Virus record (IMG/VR): IMGVR_UViG_3300028608_000069
Span: 1 to 26,152 of that record
Length of the DNA: 26,152 bases
Source of the DNA: a virus
Direction: 5' to 3' (one strand)
Shown here in pieces: positions 20,739 through 26,152 of the stretch. Position 1 is the stretch's first letter. Every line of letters starts with the position of its first letter. Both the position numbers and the translations under genes were made by a program. Under the pieces are notes generated by a model, which saw only the letters and a list, made by a program, of their open reading frames with translations, ran no database searches and had not been told where the DNA came from.

Positions 20739-20781
20739 TGAACTTACCACCAACCACCACCACACAGAGGGAGTCCACCAA

Positions 20782-21522
20782 ATGTCTGAGAAGAAGATCG
20801 ACCTCATCGCCCAGCTCCTCGCCAAGGCGGAGTCGACCACCCCGGAAGAAGCCGAAGCGCTCACCGAGGCCGCAGCCAAGATGATGGCCAAGTACATGAT
20901 CGATCAGGCCACCATCGACGCCCGTCGGGCCAAGAAGGGCGGGGCCACCGAGAAGATCGTGCAGAAGCAGCTCTTCTTCACCGGGGCCTACCGTGGCGAG
21001 CTGCTCCACCTCGCGACCTCCGTGGCCAACAGCCTCGGCACCCTGCGGGTCCTCCAGTCGACCACGTGGGAGAACGGCAAGAAGTTCGTGGCCTACATCA
21101 TCGGCTTCGAGTCGGACGTGGCGCAGGCCGAGGTCCTCATCAAGAGCCTCGAGCTTCAGGCCGCTGTCGCGGTCCGTGCCTTCTGGAAGGAGCACAAGGC
21201 TGAGAACGCTGGCCTGTCCTCCTACGACCAGGAGAAGGTCCGCCGGGGCTTCGTCCACGGGTTCGGGTCCGGTGCTGGTGTGCGGGTCTGGGAGAGCCGC
21301 AATCAGGCCGTCAGCGAGGCCAAGGTCGGCACTGAGCTGGTCCTCGTGGACCGCAAGGCCAAGGTCAACGACTGGGTCGACGAGCAGTACACCAACCTCC
21401 GCAGCAGCCGGGGCCGCAGCGCGACCGCCCACGGTGCGGCGAACCACGAAGGCTACAAGGCCGGGAAGAACGCCAACACCGGCGAGCGTGGCGTCACGCA
21501 GGGTCGGGGCATCAGCGCATGA
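20782..21522 (+). CDS. DUF2786 domain-containing protein
   Basis: 246 residues from the ATG at 20782 with GGGAG eight bases upstream; an upstream in-frame GTG would begin inside the promoter and is rejected. Residues 4-48 (KIDLIAQLLAKAESTTPEEA then ALTEAAAKMMAKYMIDQATI) match the DUF2786 family helical signature. The rest contains a beta-alpha core (YRGELLHLATSVANSLGTLR, FVAYIIGFESDVAQAEVLIK) and a basic C-terminal tail. These proteins are common in actinobacteria and their phages; the function is not established. It overlaps the next microprotein by 4 bases. Confidence 0.85.
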   Translation: MSEKKIDLIAQLLAKAESTTPEEAEALTEAAAKMMAKYMIDQATIDARRAKKGGATEKIVQKQLFFTGAYRGELLHLATSVANSLGTLRVLQSTTWENGKKFVAYIIGFESDVAQAEVLIKSLELQAAVAVRAFWKEHKAENAGLSSYDQEKVRRGFVHGFGSGAGVRVWESRNQAVSEAKVGTELVLVDRKAKVNDWVDEQYTNLRSSRGRSATAHGAANHEGYKAGKNANTGERGVTQGRGISA

Positions 21523-23109: not shown

Positions 23110-23742
23110 ATGGACCGCCAGCAGCAGATCGCAGAAGCCCGCAAGGTTGACACCTTCATCGCGGAGAAGTACAACGAGTACTTCGCAGTCGTCGAGCGCA
23201 TCTCGACCATCCGCAAGGCCATCAAGGACTCGAACAAGAGCCTCTCCTGGACCCGCCACCCCGGTGCCAAGGAGTCCATCGAGCGCCGCATCGCCGGGTA
23301 CGAGGCCCAGATCGAGAGCCTCGAGGCCGAGCGCCAGCTCAAGTCGGACGCCTACATCGAGTCCGAGAAGCTCTACAAGGGCTGGAGCCGCTTCTTCCTG
23401 GTGCAGCACATCCACTCGAACACCCACTGCTCCTCCTTCCGCCCCACGACCCGCATCGGATGGCTCCCCAACGTGTCCGGCCTGACCGAGGCCGAGGCCG
23501 TCAAGGAGCACGGTGCCACCCTCTGCACCATCTGCTTCCCCTCCGCCCCGGTGGAGCTGACCACCAAGGCAGCCGACCCCGAGACCTGCACCGGCTCTGG
23601 CAGCTTCGTGAACCGTGAGCTCCCGAACCGGCTCGGCTTCTACTCGGGCAATTGGGGCACCTGCCCCGACTGCGGCGAGCGCGTCACGGTCGTTGGCTCC
23701 TCGGGTGTCAAGCTCCGGAAGCACAAGAACCCCAACTTCTAG
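23110..23742 (+). CDS. Hypothetical zinc-ribbon protein with coiled coil
   Basis: 210 residues; GAGGAGG precedes the ATG. Residues 1-90 are helical, including ERISTIRKAIKDSNKSL and RIAGYEAQIESLEAERQL. Residues 97-150 hold a conserved-looking motif (HIHSNTHCSSFRPTTRIGWL) followed by LCTICFPSAPVE. C139-x-x-C142 and C107 with H100/H102/H106 could bind metal. A second CPDC (C185, C188) near the C-terminus with H205 looks like a zinc ribbon. This architecture is widespread among actinobacterial and phage proteins; the function is unknown. Confidence 0.85.
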   Translation: MDRQQQIAEARKVDTFIAEKYNEYFAVVERISTIRKAIKDSNKSLSWTRHPGAKESIERRIAGYEAQIESLEAERQLKSDAYIESEKLYKGWSRFFLVQHIHSNTHCSSFRPTTRIGWLPNVSGLTEAEAVKEHGATLCTICFPSAPVELTTKAADPETCTGSGSFVNRELPNRLGFYSGNWGTCPDCGERVTVVGSSGVKLRKHKNPNF

Positions 23743-24039: not shown

Positions 24040-24089
24040 GGTACCAGCCGGTGCCCCATACCGGCCAAACGTCCAAGGAGGACACACAC

Positions 24090-24848
24090 ATGCTGCGCTG
24101 CGATTCTGACGATGTCGTGCTGGCTCTCGCCGATGCACCCATCGATCCCCGCACCGGGAACAAGGTGCTCTACTCGGTGAACTGGAGGGCGACCAACGAC
24201 TCCATGATCGGCGAGGTCAACCCGGACTGGGTCCGCCGTGAGCTGGACTGGTTCAACTCCGGCAGCGACAAGCTGGAAGACATGGAGGCCCCGGTGCCTG
24301 CCCTCTTCCAGGCGTGCGCTGGCACGGACGGCAAGGTCAACAGCGCCTACGGCCACATCCTGTTCAGCCCGACGTGGGACTACCCGCTCGTCCAGACCAC
24401 CCTCTACCAGCGGATCGTCGACACGTTCGTGGCGGAGGGTGCGGAGTCGCGGCACGGTGTGGCCATCATCTCCGACCGGGACATCCACGTGCTGGCCAAG
24501 GCCAACGGCCGGAACGACTTCATCTGCACGAACGCGCTCAACGTCATGATCGACCACGAGAACCGTGTGCACATCATCGCCCAGATGCGGTCGATGGACG
24601 CCGTGTTCGGCTACCGTGCGGACTACTCCATGTGGGACAGCCTCATGATCCGGCTCGTCTCCGACCTGAACAACCAGTCTCGCTTCGGCGGCACCGAAGG
24701 TGGCTCGGTCACCCGTGGCGACATCACGTTCCAGGTCGCCAACCTGCACGTCTACCCGCGTCACTTCGACCTGCTGGCCAAGTGGTCCGACGTGGTCTAC
24801 GACCGGCAGGAGGCCGCAGCACGGCACATCTGGAAGGGTGAGAAGTGA
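24090..24848 (+). CDS. dCMP hydroxymethylase-like protein (thymidylate synthase fold)
   Basis: 252 residues. The ATG has AAGGAGG 8 bases upstream; an upstream in-frame ATG is unsupported. The catalytic Cys is C146 (FICTNALN), the phosphate-binding R167-S168 with D170 lies in QMRSMDAVFG, and ANLHVYPRHF (218-226, split at the H220/Y222 pair) matches the D-x-H-x-Y-x-x-H element of thymidylate synthases. At the position of E. coli Asn177, which selects dUMP, this protein has D178 (GYRADYSMW). T4 dCMP hydroxymethylase has Asp at the same site. So it probably adds a hydroxymethyl group to dCMP, using methylene-tetrahydrofolate. A dCMP methylase is the main alternative. It lies two genes from a glycosyltransferase, which supports base modification. 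Confidence 0.8.
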   Translation: MLRCDSDDVVLALADAPIDPRTGNKVLYSVNWRATNDSMIGEVNPDWVRRELDWFNSGSDKLEDMEAPVPALFQACAGTDGKVNSAYGHILFSPTWDYPLVQTTLYQRIVDTFVAEGAESRHGVAIISDRDIHVLAKANGRNDFICTNALNVMIDHENRVHIIAQMRSMDAVFGYRADYSMWDSLMIRLVSDLNNQSRFGGTEGGSVTRGDITFQVANLHVYPRHFDLLAKWSDVVYDRQEAAARHIWKGEK

Positions 24849-24991
24849 TGAGCCCCTGGGACTACCTCGGCACGATCTTCAGCTACTTCCTCGTAGCGAT
24901 CTGCATCATCCTCATGGGGGTCGTCCTCTACGCGCTCCTGCTGGGCGTGTGGAACACCTTCGTCAAGAAGAACCAGCGGCACGACCGCTAA
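24848..24991 (+). CDS. Small membrane protein (47 aa)
   Basis: The ATG shares one base with the hydroxymethylase stop (TGATG). Residues about 8-36 are continuously hydrophobic (GTIFSYFLVAICIILMGVVL, then YALLLGVW), forming a single long membrane helix or a tight helical hairpin. The C-terminal NTFVKKNQRHDR is basic, probably cytoplasmic. It is cotranscribed with the hydroxymethylase. No known role; a link with base modification is not shown. Confidence 0.7.
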   Translation: MSPWDYLGTIFSYFLVAICIILMGVVLYALLLGVWNTFVKKNQRHDR

Positions 24992-24996
24992 CCGAC

Positions 24997-25034
24997 TGCT
25001 CCCCCGGTCTCTGTGGTGGTAGACCGGGGGAGCA
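24997..25034 (+). terminator. Perfect 14-bp inverted repeat
   Basis: TGCTCCCCCGGTCT pairs perfectly with AGACCGGGGGAGCA around a 10-nt loop. It begins 5 bases after the stop at 24991 and ends 18 bases before the next ATG. No T tract follows, so termination would be of the GC-only type; RNA processing or protection is also possible. No new promoter was found between it and the next gene. Confidence 0.6.
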
Positions 25035-25052
25035 CCCATCTAGGGGGACAGC

Positions 25053-25277
25053 ATGTCCAGGATCGTACAGCTCCACGGTGGTCCGTGGCACGGGCAGCAA
25101 GTGTCTGTCCCGTCCGGCCGCGACCACTTCCACATCATCATGCCGGTGCTGGATGCGCTCACCCGCACCCCAGAGCAGCCCACCCCAGTAGACACCAAGG
25201 AAGGCATCTACTCTCAGGTCGGCCACGCTGGCTGGATCAACGACTTCGAATGGGATGGATTTGTCACTCATGAATGA
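25053..25277 (+). CDS. Small hypothetical protein with GGP motif
   Basis: 74 residues; AGGGGG precedes the ATG by 5 bases. It opens MSRIVQLHGGPWHGQQVSVP, a pattern (L-H-G-G-P-x-x-G) widely seen in small actinophage proteins, and ends with beta-type WINDFEWDGFVTHE. Such proteins are usually unnamed and look like compact beta folds. It overlaps the following glycosyltransferase by 8 bases. The shared operon suggests a possible accessory role in modification, but this is inference. Confidence 0.75.
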   Translation: MSRIVQLHGGPWHGQQVSVPSGRDHFHIIMPVLDALTRTPEQPTPVDTKEGIYSQVGHAGWINDFEWDGFVTHE

Positions 25278-26152
25278 ACACCTCGCGCTGCTGCGCAAGT
25301 CCAAGACAAGCTGGGTCTACCCGATCTACGTGCCCAGCTACAACCGAGCCGGGTCAGCCCCGCTCCTGGAGATGCTGCGCAAGGCACCGAGCAGGATCCA
25401 GGACCGCGTCTACATCGTCGTGAGGCCCGCGCAGATCAGGAAGTACCAGCGTGCCTACCCGTGGGCCACCATCGTCCCAGAGGCGACCCCTGGGATCGGC
25501 CCGGCCCGAATGCGCTGCCTGATCGACGCAGACGAGCGTGGCTTCCAGAACATCGTGGTGCTCGACGACGACATCATCCACGTGAGCCTGCTGGAGCGGC
25601 AGGAGGAGAAGCAGCACACGCGTCGGTACAGCTCCAAGGTCTCCGGCATCACTGAGCCGCTCCTGCTGCTGCGCTCGCTCGCTGTCGGCTGCAAGATCGC
25701 TGGCGTCCTCTTTGAGCACGTTCCGGGGTTGGCCTATGGTGCGGCCCGAAACGCGCTCTTCAGCGGCGACGTGGATCCCTCAGTCGCTGCCACGATCAAC
25801 AGGGGATCGTTCCCGGCGTGCGTCATGTTCTTCGACGTGGACCGGTTCACGATGCGCAAGATGCCGAAGCCCTTCCAGTACCACGGGGAGGACCTCGCCA
25901 TGTTCCTGGACACGTTCGAGAAGGGCCAGCGCAGCTTCACGCTTCCTGGTGTGGCCTACGACCAGCACGGTGCGATCGAGACGACCATCCCGCTGGACCC
26001 GCAGGACGAGGTCGGCAGGCCACACCTGAACGACACCGAGAAGTACTACCCGCAGATGCACCCGTTCCTCCGAGTCAGCATGAAGAACAAGCTCGGCGGA
26101 GTGATGCGGATCGGGGTAAACTGGAGTCGGTGGTACAAGGCCACCGAGACCG
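25270..26152 (+). CDS. Glycosyltransferase, TET-associated-like (partial)
   Basis: 294 residues are visible and no stop occurs before the right edge. The ATG at 25270 overlaps the previous gene by 8 bases. The opening WVYPIYVPSYNRAG (15-28) is the first beta strand and loop of a GT-A fold. VYIVVRPAQIRKYQ, then TPGIGPARMR (73-82) and VVLDDDIIH (96-104) give the DxD-type metal site; HGEDLAMFL (205-213) is a likely catalytic or base-side element. The pattern strongly resembles the TET-associated glycosyltransferase family that modifies 5-hydroxymethylcytosine in phage DNA. Next to a hydroxymethylase it would glycosylate DNA. The sugar and linkage cannot be read from sequence. Confidence 0.75.
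   Translation, partial: MNEHLALLRKSKTSWVYPIYVPSYNRAGSAPLLEMLRKAPSRIQDRVYIVVRPAQIRKYQRAYPWATIVPEATPGIGPARMRCLIDADERGFQNIVVLDDDIIHVSLLERQEEKQHTRRYSSKVSGITEPLLLLRSLAVGCKIAGVLFEHVPGLAYGAARNALFSGDVDPSVAATINRGSFPACVMFFDVDRFTMRKMPKPFQYHGEDLAMFLDTFEKGQRSFTLPGVAYDQHGAIETTIPLDPQDEVGRPHLNDTEKYYPQMHPFLRVSMKNKLGGVMRIGVNWSRWYKATET

Follow-up and report, generated by a model that had tools for sequence, protein, structure and literature searches.

Why a virus should encode an enzyme with the fold of a thymidylate synthase (TS) and, shortly after it in the same direction, a glycosyltransferase is the question raised by the right end of IMGVR_UViG_3300028608_000069, the 26,152-bp viral contig that was analyzed over its whole length and is referred to here as the window. 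The initial annotation of this DNA had read the pair as a probable operon in which a hydroxymethylase and a DNA glycosyltransferase hypermodify cytosine, and that interpretation is supported by active-site residues, fold, membership in the TET-associated glycosyltransferase (TAGT) family and gene order. We consider it highly probable that the two genes belong to a cytosine-hypermodification pathway of the window phage.

All features of the locus lie on the plus strand. A Shine-Dalgarno sequence read directly from the DNA (AAGGAGGA, 24076-24083) precedes the putative dCMP 5-hydroxymethylase gene (24090-24848; ATG at 24090, stop at 24846-24848), which encodes a 252-aa protein of the T4 gp42 type. 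Its stop codon is overlapped by the start of a small membrane-type ORF of 47 aa assigned to phrog_4198 (24848-24991), which is followed by a 74-aa ORF of phrog_5300 (25053-25277), both found at the same position in relatives. For the glycosyltransferase gene (25270-26152; predicted GT-A fold, LDDD and GED motifs) the ATG at 25270 is the best start; here ATGAATGA runs over the stop codon (25275-25277) of the 74-aa ORF. The right edge of the window falls inside this gene, leaving the frame open after 294 aa; intact relatives measure approximately 309-320 aa. Hydroxymethylase and glycosyltransferase are therefore neighbors in one co-oriented run and not adjacent genes, being separated, as in relatives, by the two small ORFs. 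On re-reading the sequence, the 421-bp gap between the stop of the TS-fold gene and the glycosyltransferase ATG proved exact, residues C146, R167, D170, H220 and Y222 of the first protein were present where the initial annotation had placed them, and the motifs that it had named in the second were found from residue 73 (TPGIGPAR) and residue 98 (LDDD). Upstream of the hydroxymethylase gene, 20776-21522 and 23110-23742 encode conserved early phage proteins (phrog_421 and phrog_2433).

A megablast search with the window returned 195 phage records, 194 of which are Microbacterium phages, mostly at about 76% identity over the terminase, portal, capsid and tape-measure genes. The window belongs to a small siphovirus related to the Microbacterium cluster EA phages. 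These related Microbacterium phages form a large collection, most of them grown on one M. foliorum strain. Because the EA phages make up a single lineage, the number of records does not equal a number of independent events. The window runs opposite to the deposited genomes, with structural genes on the minus strand and early genes on the plus strand. On the early strand of the complete relative Eleri, the hydroxymethylase-like gp50 is followed by three small genes and the glycosyltransferase gp46, and then by the "thymidylate kinase" gp45, gp44, the MazG protein gp43, a helicase and DNA polymerase. Relatives of the TS-fold enzyme and of the glycosyltransferase were detected (E<=1e-5) in 191 and 174 Microbacterium phage records, respectively, which argues that the gene pair is not a product of chance. 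In scans for related loci a single-sequence query recovered few relatives, and an alignment-based scan succeeded.

The product of ORF 24090-24848 is, as judged from its sequence and modeled structure, a dCMP hydroxymethylase of the T4 gp42 type and not a thymidylate synthase. The profile check proposed in the initial annotation came out in its favor, the protein being placed beside T4 dCMP hydroxymethylase and away from the ThyA enzymes that form dTMP: the Pfam Thymidylat_synt profile gave 18.3 bits, below its cut-off of 24.3, and a PDB sequence search returned three T4 dCMP hydroxymethylase chain sequences (E 9e-25 to 6.7e-27), the only other match being the CMP hydroxymethylase MilA (E 0.027). 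An NCBIfam search yielded no usable match for either this enzyme or the glycosyltransferase. The top fold match of the AlphaFold2 model (pLDDT 90.3) was T4 dCMP hydroxymethylase (1b49; E 4.7e-21, TM 0.81/0.84), followed by MilA (E 6.5e-13) and then by thymidylate synthases of the ThyA type (E 1.6e-11 and weaker).

Residues that discriminate among members of the superfamily were compared on a MAFFT alignment with the T4, E. coli ThyA, SPO1 and RB69 enzymes. In the T4 dCMP hydroxymethylase structure, Cys148 is the nucleophile, Asp179 the cytosine determinant and Glu60 the activator of methylene-tetrahydrofolate, while Asp145 and Ser94 activate the water for hydroxymethylation and are reported to separate hydroxymethylases from thymidylate synthases (PMC6400193). 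At the discriminating sites the window enzyme carries C146 (nucleophile), D178 (cytosine), D143 and S85 (water) and E51 (folate); in full, its E51, S85, Y87, D143, C146, R167, D170, D178, H220, Y222 and R224 correspond to T4 E60, S94, Y96, D145, C148, R168, D171, D179, H216, Y218 and R220. The discriminating set is invariant in 27 aligned sequences, comprising the window enzyme and relatives from viral contigs. Among the aligned enzymes the whole set is common to the window and T4-type proteins only, with E. coli ThyA, the SPO1 dUMP hydroxymethylase and the RB69 5-hydroxy-dCMP synthase each failing at least one discriminating residue. This set is the strongest single evidence for assigning the protein as a dCMP hydroxymethylase, and together with the model it strongly suggests that the enzyme turns dCMP into 5-hydroxymethyl-dCMP (hm-dCMP). 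A tree placed the EA enzymes together (100/100) on the T4 side, which adds little beyond the residues because the RB69, SPO1 and ThyA branches are very long. T4 gp42 (PDB 1b49, 1b5d, 6a9a) thus shares with the window enzyme the TS fold and the full complement of catalytic, cytosine, water and folate residues, at 27-31% identity. It differs in some residues of the folate pocket, where the window has Trp47, Phe73, Cys76 and His122 in place of T4 Tyr56, Trp82, Val85 and Arg124, and in its carrier, that of the window enzyme being an actinobacterial siphovirus of roughly 40 kb.

The deposited labels "thymidylate synthase" and "ThyX", and the annotation of an adjoining gene as "thymidylate kinase", would favor a conventional ThyA or ThyX thymidylate synthase, raising the supply of dTMP, beside an unrelated glycosyltransferase. 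We regard this as very improbable and rejected it, as it is contradicted by residues and fold: the window has Asp178, Asp143 and Ser85 where E. coli ThyA has Asn177, Leu143 and Pro92, the Pfam ThyA score is under the cut-off, and T4 dCMP hydroxymethylase ranked first both by sequence and by fold. The label "ThyX", borne in GenBank by the ThyA-fold dCMP hydroxymethylases of Eleri (L002, 34621-35385) and Pikmin (L116, 3778-4587), is wrong in any case, since the protein has a ThyA fold and the ThyX fold differs from it. Also rejected was a dUMP hydroxymethylase of the SPO1 gp29 type, in which N194 stands against window D178; on the same alignment the SPO1 enzyme carries A100 at the Ser85 site.

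The two genes appear in the deposited annotation and in the literature that we found only as "thymidylate synthase/ThyX" and "glycosyltransferase". A 2020 Microbacterium phage genome paper and two genome announcements name TS/ThyX, thymidylate kinase, MazG or glycosyltransferase but draw no connection among these genes, and a search of the open literature, with subscription papers mostly outside its reach, returned no report of a modified base or modified DNA in any Microbacterium phage. If our interpretation is true, about 190 sequenced phages carry an unrecognized cytosine hypermodification and are mislabeled where their enzyme is called "thymidylate synthase" or "ThyX".

An enzyme of the TS superfamily can also act on dCMP in another way. 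RB69-like phages make 5-hydroxy-dCMP with such an enzyme, to which arabinose is attached directly, and the enzymes of RB69 and other Mosigvirus likewise have Asp at the 179 position (PMC13390438). That the window enzyme does the same, with the sugar joined directly to the ring oxygen, is nevertheless very unlikely. RB69 lacks the folate-activating Glu (Phe75, against Glu51 in the window) and has Thr114, Glu160, Asn186 and Phe226 where the window, as T4, has Ser85, Asp143, Asp170 and Tyr222. PDB entry 9iqc, whose title describes a riboflavin-dependent monooxygenase with dCMP and FAD, is matched by the RB69 protein over its full length (E 4.5e-162); the fold match of the window model to 9iqc was E 1.7e-9, against 4.7e-21 to T4 dCMP hydroxymethylase. 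In addition, a sugar gene cluster like that of RB69 was not seen in the Eleri annotation. The RB69-type product was rejected on these two grounds, the folate Glu that the window retains and the far weaker match to 9iqc. The two systems are alike in having a TS-superfamily enzyme that would act on dCMP with sugar transfer afterwards, and differ in the flavin-type enzyme of RB69 without the folate Glu, its arabinosyltransferase of predicted GT-B fold and its extra sugar genes.

Production of 5-methyl-dCMP by an XP12-like dCMP methyltransferase, which would also need an Asp for cytosine, we consider extremely unlikely, and a methyl group would offer the neighboring glycosyltransferase no hydroxyl. 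Asp143 and Ser85, reported to be needed for the hydroxymethylation water and absent from ThyA (PMC6400193), are invariant in the window enzyme and its relatives, and it was by this residue argument only that the methyltransferase was rejected.

The second gene, from 25270 to the window edge, encodes what its sequence and model identify as a TAGT. The initial annotation had proposed a DNA glycosyltransferase, and the protein indeed groups with Pfam TAGT and with the beta-glucosyl-HMC-alpha-glucosyltransferase family, not with surface glycosyltransferases. It scores 42.8 bits against Pfam TAGT (PF20691; cut-off 27.5), in a match limited to positions 1-104 of the 205-position profile. Its PHROG family is phrog_4519, and it also matches phrog_842 (beta-glucosyl-HMC-alpha-glucosyltransferase). 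GT-A enzymes are among the top PDB fold matches of its model (pLDDT 86.9), which resembles viral TAGTs, the top viral matches including the Klebsiella phage PKO111 beta-glucosyl-HMC-alpha-glucosyltransferase; a PDB sequence search with the protein returned nothing meaningful. D99-D101 of the DDD motif are invariant in aligned relatives. When profiles were compared, the Citrobacter phage Moon TAGT matched with 96.1% probability (E 3e-9), at about 23% identity, and in this T-even phage the TAGT gene lies directly 3' of the dCMP hydroxymethylase gene.

By analogy with the TAGT family, the enzyme would transfer a sugar onto hydroxymethylcytosine (hmC) in DNA. T4 beta-glucosyltransferase is absent from 21 relatives, mostly of complete-genome size, in a search to which the T4 and Moon controls responded, so transfer of the first sugar is probably the work of the TAGT. 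No alpha-glucosyltransferase was found in the same number of relatives in a search run without a positive control. The remark in the initial annotation that the window has no TET extends to these 21 relatives, in which none was found either, by a search in which no positive control responded. The TAGT appears to be the sole DNA glycosyltransferase and probably places the first sugar directly on hmC, unlike the TAGT of T6. The T2/T6 enzyme (beta-glucosyl-HMC-alpha-glucosyltransferase) belongs to the same Pfam family, PF20691, and has the same GT-A fold, but that of T6, according to a 2026 survey, attaches the second glucose once a different enzyme, an alpha-glucosyltransferase, has acted (PMC13216743). 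The window lineage, with no beta-glucosyltransferase and no alpha-glucosyltransferase detected, should add the first sugar with its TAGT. Phage TET-TAGT systems are similar in that the TAGT is expected to glycosylate hydroxymethylcytosine; here, in contrast, hmC would arise at the nucleotide level through dCMP hydroxymethylase, and no TET was found. The same survey reports solitary TAGTs in 288 of 753 phage genomes, flags them as potentially novel transferases and leaves their product open (PMC13216743). The window lineage resembles these phages in having a TAGT without alpha- or beta-glucosyltransferase, and differs from those described there in that partner genes predicted to make the hmC substrate are identified.

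A kinase and a pyrophosphohydrolase had been anticipated beyond the right edge, and relatives carry both genes beyond the position that corresponds to this edge, outside the window itself. An ORF for a P-loop kinase (GPDxxGKS/T) starts -9 to +18 bp from the glycosyltransferase stop in 19 of 19 related loci, and the kinase was present in all 22 relatives tested. Its relatives were detected in 191 records, every one of a Microbacterium phage, a figure that equals the TS count (totals compared, not record by record). As a Pfam search gave no match and the best PDB sequence match (E 0.35) is insignificant, specificity of the kinase for hm-dCMP is a guess. After the kinase come a phrog_4086 gene and a MazG-like pyrophosphohydrolase, which in Eleri matches Pfam PRA-PH; such MazG-like genes are also found in phages that do not belong to the group, and MazG is therefore not peculiar to this pathway. 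In the relatives viewed, the phrog_4086 proteins, Eleri gp44 (L002, 31803-32582) and its equivalents, are encoded after the kinase and before MazG. The gp44-like protein has no Pfam match and is possibly part of the pathway.

We propose that the pathway proceeds in four steps. The TS-fold enzyme would use methylene-tetrahydrofolate to convert dCMP to hm-dCMP, as residues and fold strongly suggest. The P-loop "thymidylate kinase-like" enzyme, its gene seen in relatives only, would then phosphorylate hm-dCMP, and the MazG-like pyrophosphohydrolase may remove dCTP, so that the phage DNA polymerase would incorporate hm-dCTP. The TAGT would next move a sugar from a host nucleotide-sugar to hmC in the finished DNA, as its family membership implies. 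Finally, by analogy, DNA bearing sugar-hmC would resist host restriction enzymes, the modification probably acting as an anti-restriction shield. We infer modified cytosine in virion DNA, the identity of the sugar, the specificity of the accessory enzymes and shielding from restriction.

Across the lineage the TS-fold enzyme, the kinase, the gp44-like gene and MazG are constant, and the sugar gene varies, with one TAGT in most members. The Kojivirus phages PrincePhergus (L006, 4546-6654) and Guetzie (L115, 4001-6077) keep hydroxymethylase, kinase and MazG, and a TAGT was not found anywhere in either genome; these two are predicted to be bare-hmC phages. Since some relatives lack a glycosyltransferase, the pathway does not depend on glycosylation. 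Retention of the other genes in Kojivirus without any TAGT would also agree with window phage DNA that contains (mostly) unglycosylated hmC and a TAGT that acts elsewhere, e.g. on a host surface polymer, as would the fact that we found no literature description of a TAGT as the first glycosyltransferase on nucleotide-level hmC. We think this unlikely, given the family membership of the enzyme, the conserved TS-glycosyltransferase-kinase order, the matching TS-TAGT neighborhood in T-even phages, and the occurrence of tandem and divergent TAGTs exactly at the slot between TS and kinase. Tandem pairs lie between hydroxymethylase and kinase in QuadZero (L007, 4042-5936) and Mercedes (L118, 2588-4491), where a disaccharide modification is possible, and divergent TAGTs occur in Juanyo (24.7% identity) and Chepli. 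Pikmin gp45 (L116, 5642-6529), an unannotated 295-aa protein at the glycosyltransferase position, has an LDDD motif and a sub-threshold TAGT score of 17.4 bits; BLASTP against the window glycosyltransferase showed no meaningful similarity.

This variation fits a constant hmC module combined with an exchangeable sugar module. We see about an even chance that the TAGT serves as both the first and the sole DNA glycosyltransferase for hmC made at the nucleotide level, with an undescribed sugar or linkage, in a lineage series that runs from bare hmC (Kojivirus) through a monosaccharide (one TAGT, including the window phage) possibly to a disaccharide (QuadZero and Mercedes), with the divergent TAGTs of Juanyo, Chepli and perhaps Pikmin possibly moving other sugars. 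If the proposed pathway is right, comparing the published relatives that have zero, one or two transferases would readily show which addition a solitary TAGT makes. All 16 contigs that had been selected for an EA-type hydroxymethylase contained a TAGT, which, the EA phages being one lineage, represents one association and not sixteen, and none was found in 50 contigs, many of them fragments, with other dCMP hydroxymethylases. These 50 were tested from among the many further viral contigs (L052-L114) that encode T4-type dCMP hydroxymethylases, at 32-38% identity.
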